Shown: piece by piece, positions 18,821 through 27,223 of the stretch
Layout of the letters: every line of letters starts with the position of its first letter
Position numbering within the stretch: position 1 is the first letter of the stretch
Source of the DNA: Oscillospiraceae bacterium
Lineage (GTDB): Bacteria; Bacillota; Clostridia; Oscillospirales; Oscillospiraceae
NCBI GenBank assembly: GCA_017395935.1
Contig: JAFQNL010000025.1
Span: forward strand, 1 to 64,000
Length of the DNA: 64,000 bases
Direction of reading: 5' to 3'
The notes under the pieces: generated by a model
The model's database searches: none
What the model saw: the letters and a program-made list of their open reading frames with translations, nothing else
Told to the model about the DNA's origin: nothing
Position numbers and translations under genes: made by a program

Positions 18821-18856
18821 ACCCGGCGTCAGAACAGACTGACGCCGGGTATTTTT
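18821..18856 (+). terminator. Terminator of recD2
   Basis: ACCCGGCGTCA/TGACGCCGGGT (18821-18831, 18840-18850) is followed by ATTTTT. It overlaps the end of the converging spoIID-like gene. Confidence 0.85.
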
Positions 18857-19932
18857 CAGCCGCAAATCTCAGTGCCCGGATAGTAGTGGGCCAGAATTTG
18901 CCGGTAGTCTGAGCCCTGTTTGGCCAGCACGTTGGCCCCGTACTGGCTCATACCAACGCCATGGCCGTAGCCGGTGACCTGAAAGGTGACCGTCCCGTCC
19001 TGACAGCTGACCTCGAAGCTGGCCGACCGGAGAGCGCAAAGGGTTCGAAGCTCCTGAGCCGTTACCCGGACGCCGCCTACCTGAAGGGAGGAGAGTCCGC
19101 CCCCCTCCTCCCGCTCCGGAGCGGAGAACCAGCCGCCGCAGTCCCCGCTGAGATCGGCCTCCGGCCAGAGGGACAGAAAGAGGGCGGCAAACTCCTCCGC
19201 CGGATAGGAGACGGTAGAGTAATAGTTGGGCGCGTCCTGCTCTCCCTCGGGACTGGATACTGAGACCAGATAGGGCAGCTGCTGACCCCAGACCGACTGG
19301 GCCGACCGGGTAGCGCCGTCGGAGGAGGCGTGAAAGACGGCCAGCGCCGGCAGCGACTCCCAGACCAGATATTCCCCGGCAGTGGCTGCGATGGCATCGG
19401 AGATCTTTCCGGCGTAGCCCTCCCCCTCCTCGCCCCAGCGCTCCATCCGCTCCTCCCGGCTCATCCAGGCCTGACAGCAGCCAAAGTCAGCGCAGACGTT
19501 GGCCTCCGGATGCCGGTCGCTGCCCTCCAGCAGCCGGCAGGCAGTATAGCTTCTGGCGGCTACCGCCTGAGCCTTCAGGGCCTCGGGGTGAAAGGAGGCG
19601 GGCATTTCCGCTGCCACTACGCCCCAGAGATAATCCTCCAGCGTCATGGTCTCCGGCGTTCCATCCGGCCGAAGCAGGGTGATCTCTCCGGGGAGAAGCC
19701 CGGCCGCTGTGTCCGCTTCCGGTGAGGCAGCCTGTCCGGCCGCGGAGAGGGCTTCCTCCGGCGGCCCCTCCTCTGGAACAGGAGCCTCCTCCTCGACGGG
19801 GGCGGGCTCCGCCTCTGTCGGCGGCAGGACGCTCCGCTCCAGCAGCACCGAGGCCGGAAGGGGCGCCGTCAAAGGCAGCAGGAGCAGAAAAAGGGTCAAC
19901 AAGACAGAGGTAAAAGCGACTCGATGCAGCAT
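18856..19932 (-). CDS. spoIID: SpoIID/LytB-family sporulation protein
   Basis: A 358-residue SpoIID-family protein. SpoIID is a peptidoglycan lytic transglycosylase that works with SpoIIP and SpoIIM in engulfment during sporulation. A signal/anchor helix (about 5-27; SVLLTLFLLLLPLTAPLPA) is followed by a Pro/Glu/Ala-rich linker to about residue 78. The catalytic domain has the family core VVAAEMPASFHPEALKAQAV, ARSYT, FHASSDGATRSAQSVWG and the ending GYGHGVGMSQYGA. AAGGAG precedes the ATG by 8 bases. I saw no convincing sigma-E promoter. SpoIID paralogues exist, so the exact orthologue is not certain. Confidence 0.88.
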   Translation of the reverse strand: MLHRVAFTSVLLTLFLLLLPLTAPLPASVLLERSVLPPTEAEPAPVEEEAPVPEEGPPEEALSAAGQAASPEADTAAGLLPGEITLLRPDGTPETMTLEDYLWGVVAAEMPASFHPEALKAQAVAARSYTACRLLEGSDRHPEANVCADFGCCQAWMSREERMERWGEEGEGYAGKISDAIAATAGEYLVWESLPALAVFHASSDGATRSAQSVWGQQLPYLVSVSSPEGEQDAPNYYSTVSYPAEEFAALFLSLWPEADLSGDCGGWFSAPEREEGGGLSSLQVGGVRVTAQELRTLCALRSASFEVSCQDGTVTFQVTGYGHGVGMSQYGANVLAKQGSDYRQILAHYYPGTEICG

Positions 19933-26060: not shown

Positions 26061-26113
26061 TTCTCCGACCATGCCATGCCGGCGCGGGGACAAAGGACAG
26101 GAGGCAGAGGGCC

Positions 26114-27190
26114 ATGAGGGAACGGAAAAACCGGAGAAAGGGGGCGGTCCGGCCGGCAGCGGCCGCTCTGCTGCTGATTTTGTCGCTGGTTGTCAGCGGC
26201 GCACTTCCGGAGGGTGAGCTTTCTACCAAACTGCTGGCGCGTATTCTGGACCCGGGCAGTCAGAGCGAGGGTTTGCCTGCCCCGGAGACCGGAGAAGAGG
26301 AGCAGCCCCTTCCTCCGGCGGAAGAGATTCCCGCCCCGCCGGAGGAGCACGCGCCGGCCTTTCCCGCCCTGTCCCTCTTCGGCCTGCTGGAGGCGCCGGA
26401 GGAATAGCAGCCGAACCGGCCGGAGCAATGGTCGCCGGTCCGCTATGAGATCCGGGGGGAGGATCTGGAGCTGAAGAACGATACAAACCTGCGGCTCTCT
26501 CTGGCCGACTATCTCCGGGAAATCAGCCTGCCTCTGGCCGACGATGGTCCTCAGATTCTCATCATTCACACCCACGGCACCGAGGCCTACACCATGGAGG
26601 GTGAGGACCGCTACACGCCTACCGATCTGGCCCGGACCACCGATCCCAACTGCAATATGATCCGGGTAGGGGAGGAGATGAAAATGGTCTTTGAGCAGAT
26701 GGGACTCTCTGTCCTCCACGATACCGCTCTTTACGACTATCCCAGCTATACCGGCTCATATGCCCGCTCTCTGGAGGGGATCCGGAAGGCGCTGGAGGAG
26801 CATCCGACCATCTCGGTGGTGCTGGATGTCCATCGGGACGCCCTGACTGACAGCGCCGGCAACTCCATCCCGATGACCACCCTGCTGGACGGGGAGCAGA
26901 CGGCTCAGGTCATGCTGGTGCTGGGCAGTCAGGAGAGCGGCCTGAGCCATCCGAACTGGGAGGAGAATCTGTCCCTGGCCGCCGCCATCCAGCAGCGGCT
27001 CATGGCGCTGGAGCCCGACTTTCCCCGGCCGCTGAATCTGCGGGGGCAGCGGTTTAATCAGCATATGACGACCGGCTCCCTGCTGGTGGAGGTGGGGACT
27101 CATGGCAATACCCTCCAGCAGGCGCTTCGGGGCGCCCGGGCCTTTGCCGCGGCTGCCGGCTCAGTGCTGCTGGAGCAGGGAGGAGAATAG
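26114..27190 (+). pseudogene. spoIIP: spoIIP (stage II sporulation protein P) interrupted by in-frame amber codon 98
   Basis: SpoIIP is a membrane-anchored amidase/endopeptidase that thins septal peptidoglycan during engulfment, with SpoIID. ATG 26114 follows ACAGGAGG. Residues 12-30 form the anchor, then comes a Pro/Glu linker. TAG at 26405-26407 stops the frame at codon 98, yet the same frame continues without another stop through QPNRPEQWSPVRYE into the full catalytic domain: LIIHTHGTEAYT, VVLDVHRDAL and VEVGTHGNTLQQAL, with its metal-binding histidines and glutamate. It ends at a second TAG (27188-27190). No ATG, GTG or TTG lies in frame between the amber and IIHTHGTEAYT, so the domain cannot be made separately. 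It could be a nonsense mutation, a sequencing error or read-through. Confidence 0.85.
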
Positions 27191-27197
27191 AAAGACA

Positions 27198-27223
27198 GCC
27201 CCGGCACAGCGGTGCCGGGGCTT
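27198..27223. terminator. Hairpin between spoIIP and the aldo/keto reductase
   Basis: GCCCCGGCAC and GTGCCGGGGC form a strong stem. The minus side continues TGTCTTTC, so it probably ends the reductase transcript and may also stop spoIIP. Confidence 0.65.

Follow-up and report, generated by a model that had tools for sequence, protein, structure and literature searches.

How does a sporulation gene come to carry an amber codon in mid-frame, in a genome where TAG is rarely used as a stop? The question is raised by spoIIP in the window analyzed here, a stretch of 64,000 nucleotides from an assembly of 2.07 Mb in 46 contigs with 97% completeness. SpoIIP acts with SpoIID, degrading peptidoglycan in engulfment. 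In C. difficile, sporulation is reported to need the amidase activity of SpoIIP, and spore formation there depends on its two catalytic histidines (PMC6221140). An earlier note on this DNA listed nonsense mutation, sequencing error, regulated read-through and amber suppression as possible explanations. The first two survive best and the others fare badly; the break in spoIIP most likely reflects an ordinary nonsense mutation or an incorrect assembled base, and no concealed departure from the standard genetic code.

The spoIIP gene and its in-frame TAG

The gene lies on the plus strand, and reading of the sequence identifies a ribosome-binding site, AGGAGG, at 26099–26104, nine bases 5′ of the start codon. 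The first piece (26114–26404, 97 codons) encodes a membrane anchor and an acidic, proline-rich linker. It is closed by the TAG at 26405–26407, and the second piece (26408–27187, 260 codons) encodes the remaining linker and the enzyme domain, ending at another TAG (27188–27190). On the 3′ side there is a G+C-rich inverted repeat at 27197–27222, terminator-like in its sequence and without a run of T. The earlier note correctly saw a SpoIIP frame divided by an in-frame TAG and resuming with its catalytic motifs, which are all kept behind the TAG. No further lesion was found in the gene, the remaining frame being open up to its stop.

The second piece alone matches the SpoIIP models above their curated cut-offs, both in Pfam (PF07454, 175 bits, E 2.2e-51) and in NCBIfam (TIGR02867, 147 bits, E 5.6e-43); the anchor and linker of the first piece match no family in either collection. 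The gene thus keeps the anchor, linker, enzyme domain and motifs of the SpoIIP family, and differs from it in the TAG within the linker, owing to which anchor and enzyme do not share a single open frame, and in a faster-evolving enzyme domain.

Could translation resume past the TAG? The first ATG, GTG or TTG behind it is the ATG at 26594–26596, which sits inside the enzyme domain just behind the HTHGTEAY motif, so that a restart there would yield no intact SpoIIP enzyme. The earlier claim that no restart codon lies between the TAG and the catalytic domain stands. With the TAG present in the cell, ribosomes would be expected to stop after 97 residues and to make membrane anchor and linker without the enzyme. 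Full SpoIIP would then be absent apart from the trace of read-through allowed by any stop; unless UAG leaks, the cells should be unable, or much less able, to complete engulfment and form spores.

Conservation of spoIIP in relatives

A search of 32 genomes of the genus, from a collection with a single genome for each species, gave a spoIIP match in 30, this genome included. In all 29 relatives that have the gene, among the 31 searched, the frame is open, with 394–537 codons compared with 260 here, and the linker is open throughout. The wider search of 150 genomes of the family found SpoIIP in 133 (134 rows), and the frame of this genome is the shortest of all. The next shortest, with 282 and 283 codons, reach the end of a contig; they belong to the genomes G146 and G221, and for G146 this was found by calculation. 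The comparison with relatives proposed in the earlier note therefore leaves the in-frame stop private to one genome, the pattern of a nonsense-broken gene or pseudogene.

This bears directly on the suggestion of programmed read-through, in which cells would make either a short anchor or the long enzyme by controlling passage through the TAG. The location of the TAG between anchor and enzyme would suit such a switch, and the next codon is CAG, resembling the UAG-CAR contexts mentioned in the earlier note. Yet the TAG is conserved in none of the 29 relatives with spoIIP, the bases that follow it are unlike those at a second amber site in rpoC (see below), and the searches described below found no dedicated machinery. 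The suggestion finds no support in the relatives, and we regard such a switch as highly improbable.

Rate of evolution of SpoIIP and the sporulation context

We judged selection on SpoIIP from amino-acid distances, taking as the relative rate the distance from this genome to its relatives divided by that between relatives. By this measure the SpoIIP enzyme domain stands at 2.09, the top of 19 called frames (the two pieces of rpoC being counted apart); the other 18 lie at 1.01–1.68, with SpoIID hardly raised at 1.15. On a constant panel of nine genomes, this one included, the ratio is 1.95 for SpoIIP (bootstrap 1.61–2.40) and 1.42 for SpoIVA (1.27–1.62), compared with 1.13 for SpoIID, 1.05 for prfA (eight genomes) and 1.06–1.16 for rpoB and the rpoC pieces. 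Scaled to the rpoBC distance, SpoIIP of this genome is at 2.88 against 1.55–2.10 in the other 15 genomes. The corresponding values are 1.81 against 1.35–1.62 for SpoIVA, 4.25 against 2.95–4.08 for SpoIID and 1.88 against 1.68–2.03 for prfA.

A ratio of 2.09 indicates relaxed constraint on spoIIP, yet the protein keeps 84 of the 89 columns that are invariant in the 29 relatives; its five lone departures are the most among the 30 genomes. Two genes near prfA (L053:6357–7757 and L053:8357–9427, both minus) are also fast in this lineage, at 1.68 and 1.57. With these two fast and SpoIID hardly raised, the relaxation does not clearly extend to sporulation as a whole, and we make no such claim.

SpoIID, the partner of SpoIIP in engulfment, is encoded in the same window by an intact frame (18856–19932, minus; TIGR02870, 283 bits against a cut-off of 235; PF08486), and the frame of spoIVA is intact elsewhere in the genome. 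These two frames, and the presence of a single lesion in spoIIP, are points against a nonsense mutation. Browne et al. (2021, PMC8340488) report repeated loss of sporulation among gut Firmicutes. A lineage of smallish genome (2.07 Mb) that had lost the function would resemble the former spore-formers of that report, with the difference that the study, as reported, rests on gene presence, whereas here SpoIIP, SpoIID and SpoIVA are all still recognizable. A broken spoIIP would illustrate, in a routine way, the decay of the ability to form spores, and would warn that inferring sporulation from gene presence can mislead.

TAG as a stop codon

Is TAG still a stop in this genome? Forty-nine genes are called in the window, ending in 25 TAA, 23 TGA and a single TAG. 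The earlier count agrees for TAA and TAG, and its 24 TGA exceed by one what the gene caller gives. The genome-wide count proposed there was made on 933 kb (45% of the genome, in 56 stretches), where the 715 called genes end in 387 TGA, 304 TAA and 24 TAG. One of these 24 is the broken frame of rpoC, leaving 23, among which HrcA ends in TAG at its normal place before GrpE. Thus TAG is a rare yet genuinely used stop; the earlier note had already cited the TAG end of spoIIP against full reassignment.

In stretches from relatives TAG ends 5 of 149 and 19 of 238 genes, two of those 19 being in-frame breaks. With known breaks left out, the comparison is 23 of 714 here and 22 of 385 in the relatives (Fisher p 0.055, a value that treats the relatives' genes as independent, when to a large extent the genes recur from one relative to the next). 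TAG stops are therefore uncommon across the genus and somewhat rarer in this genome, a mild point in favour of a leaky UAG. Codon usage is such that 60–65% of random nonsense substitutions would yield TAG, which leaves nothing special to explain in a break of the amber kind. The earlier note had set the amber codon in this gene beside the avoidance of TAG as a stop. The low use of TAG is borne out, and any tension between the two mostly dissolves given that codon usage favours TAG as the product.

Search for machinery that reads UAG

Release factor 1 is present at full length (TIGR00019, 499 bits against a cut-off of 423), with a score within the range of the relatives. Pyrrolysyl-tRNA synthetase (PylS) was not found in the assembled genome, and pyrrolysine as the meaning of UAG is not supported. 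A tRNA model search gave 46 assembled tRNA genes, with the anticodon assigned in every one, and none has CUA. The two glutamine tRNAs bear normal UUG and CUG anticodons. An amber suppressor tRNA or a pyl system, both raised in the earlier note, thus found no support in the assembled genome. Full reassignment of UAG is likewise not supported, given the presence of RF1, the lack of a CUA tRNA among the 46 and the finding of just two in-frame TAGs among the 715 genes called in 45% of the genome.

A 4-bp anticodon stem has been linked to stop-codon read-through in one report (PMC13092985); that of tRNA-Gln(CUG) here has 5 bp, with a G-U pair at the top. Ile(GAU), Ala(UGC) and Pro(UGG) are absent from the 46 genes, so part of the tRNA set must be missing from the assembly, and it is possible that a suppressor tRNA is hidden there. 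Two weaker matches to the tRNA model (G000:C6:164917–164997 and C46:98561–98638) resemble 3′ fragments of tmRNA or tRNA, and were not accepted as suppressors; they are possibly attachment sites of integrated elements.

A nonsense mutation is supported by several observations: the TAG is private to this genome, the SpoIIP domain is the fastest of the 19 frames and has the most lone departures of the 30 genomes, TAG is the nonsense product that codon usage favours, and no machinery for decoding UAG was found in the assembled genome. With moderate confidence, we favour the view that a nonsense mutation has struck a spoIIP gene that is in other respects well preserved, in a lineage where the constraint on SpoIIP, and less clearly that on SpoIVA, is weaker than in its relatives. 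We infer that the living cells, and not the assembly alone, carry the TAG, that they make too little full-length SpoIIP to be of use and that their sporulation suffers.

A second in-frame TAG, in rpoC

The scan of the 933 kb revealed a second amber codon, in rpoC (L088:13309–13311, minus; contig C7 of this genome, G000, at about 124440). The pieces on its two sides both match RpoC domains, the N-terminal part matching once in the genome. We could read the corresponding column at 25 loci from 24 relatives, four of 29 relative loci having no match to the motif used; it is glutamine at 18 of the 25 and another sense codon at the remaining seven. RpoC is essential, and a living cell cannot do without rpoC. 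It follows that either a base is wrong, or UAG is read, or RpoC functions as two pieces. The last would require re-initiation at a GTG just behind the TAG; no ribosome-binding site was seen for it, the device could not apply to spoIIP, and we have rejected it. The rpoC amber cannot be a null mutation, leaving wrong bases in the assembly or the reading of UAG at some level, and either would undercut a nonsense mutation in spoIIP.

A wrong consensus base at the spoIIP TAG, the cells having an intact gene, is a real if tentative possibility. It gains from rpoC, where all 25 relative loci read have a sense codon and a wrong base is the simplest account, and from a third break, a TAA in a gene of the phosphotransferase system (PTS), which falls some 92 bases from the end of a contig, where assemblies are weak. 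However, three wrong breaks in 933 kb would imply about one wrong base in 7,000 (a figure we derived from the codon-usage calculation, which gives a nonsense fraction of 3%), a high rate for an assembly of 46 contigs and 97% completeness. Nor is there a clear excess of odd residues in the RNA polymerase subunits. Counting departures from otherwise invariant columns, this genome has three in RpoC and six in RpoB, and is exceeded by 4 of 20 and 2 of 17 relatives, respectively, although the test is too weak to catch one wrong base in several thousand. An assembly error also leaves unexplained why the broken gene should be the fastest of 19 frames. In the family search this genome has two RpoC matches, at places outside the list, as do many relatives. 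None of the RpoC matches listed, among which this genome does not figure, has an internal stop, and the list gives no base rate.

Is UAG read as a sense codon?

The alternative for rpoC is that UAG is read modestly, by an unseen suppressor or a near-cognate glutamine tRNA, giving full-length RpoC and SpoIIP in lower amount. This would account for both TAGs together, and fits the glutamine found at 18 of the 25 rpoC loci. It also draws on the lower number of TAG stops here than in the relatives (with the lack of independence noted above), on in-frame TAGs in two near relatives (in a PilT-like gene and a solute-binding protein gene), and on gaps in the assembled tRNA set, Ile(GAU) among them. 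In-frame stops with purifying selection are described as widespread in bacteria by Belinky et al. (2021, PMC7918605), which lends some plausibility. The spoIIP site resembles those in that its frame is interrupted by one TAG and by nothing else; as described, that work focuses on stops common to at least two species, whereas the spoIIP TAG occurs in one genome.

Against the reading of UAG stand the lack of a CUA anticodon among the tRNA genes assembled, the presence of RF1 and the failure to find PylS in the assembled genome. The scan, to which stops close to the end of a gene are invisible, found just two in-frame TAGs among 715 genes; HrcA has its TAG where the gene normally terminates; tRNA-Gln(CUG) has the longer stem; and the in-frame TGA breaks in two other relatives indicate that breaks are not confined to TAG. 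We consider modest reading of UAG unlikely. More unlikely still, in our judgement, is its most far-reaching form, in which UAG leaks, probably as glutamine, sustaining the rpoC amber and the expression of spoIIP in a bacterium whose code looks standard, whose RF1 gene is intact and in which no suppressor tRNA can be seen, as an early and sparse capture of UAG, perhaps throughout the genus.

TAG recoding is known in gut phages, where the codon is recoded to glutamine. The present genome is similar in having UAG inside genes, with a mostly glutamine column in rpoC of the relatives, and differs in that no CUA tRNA was found in the assembly, RF1 is present and TAG is still a stop. Were the rpoC amber truly present in the cells, a bacterium from nature would be relying on read-through of UAG for an essential gene, with no reassignment of the codon, and the first steps of codon capture would be open to direct study. 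The second in-frame stop, in an essential gene, deserves to be re-checked.

In-frame breaks elsewhere in the genome and in relatives

How unusual are such breaks? We scanned for neighbouring pairs of genes in the same frame and judged each junction by eye, a procedure from which stops within about 25–30 codons of the end of a gene escape. This genome has 53 such pairs in 642 kb and 27 in 291 kb, and all but those of rpoC, spoIIP and the PTS gene look like separate genes. In relatives the identical scan, also judged by eye, came up empty over 317 kb and turned up two breaks, each a TAG, over a further 330 kb. With three breaks in 933 kb, compared with two in 648 kb by the same scan, this genome is not out of line with its genus.

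The third break in this genome is an in-frame TAA in a PTS EIIC gene (L055:92–94, minus), near the start of contig C20; another locus of the genome (L172) aligns with a tyrosine at the position of the TAA. Of the two breaks in relatives, one is an in-frame TAG (L251:6514–6516, minus) close to where a PilT-like ATPase gene of G002 ends; the gene matches the T2SSE family and we take it to be PilT. The other (L252:11182–11184, plus) cuts a solute-binding protein gene of G001 midway, and both pieces match SBP_bac_5.

A second scan, by homology over 230 loci, is blind to the break in spoIIP, where the linker does not align, and confirmed those in rpoC and the PTS gene. It gave many further matches, most of which we judged to be shadow frames, upstream non-coding stretches or intergenic gaps. 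Six were inspected, of which four are upstream stretches and two are real-looking TGA breaks in relatives, at places that the first scan did not cover. One is in G018, in a small conserved gene beside spoIIP (L026:1107–1109, plus), where five other alignments have cysteine. The other is in a frame near prfA in G028 (L182:1024–1026, plus), a genome listed as 10% contaminated, and is mostly aligned with arginine. In G018, SpoIVA is also present as two overlapping matches (G018:C49:876–2338, minus), as if the gene were frame-shifted.
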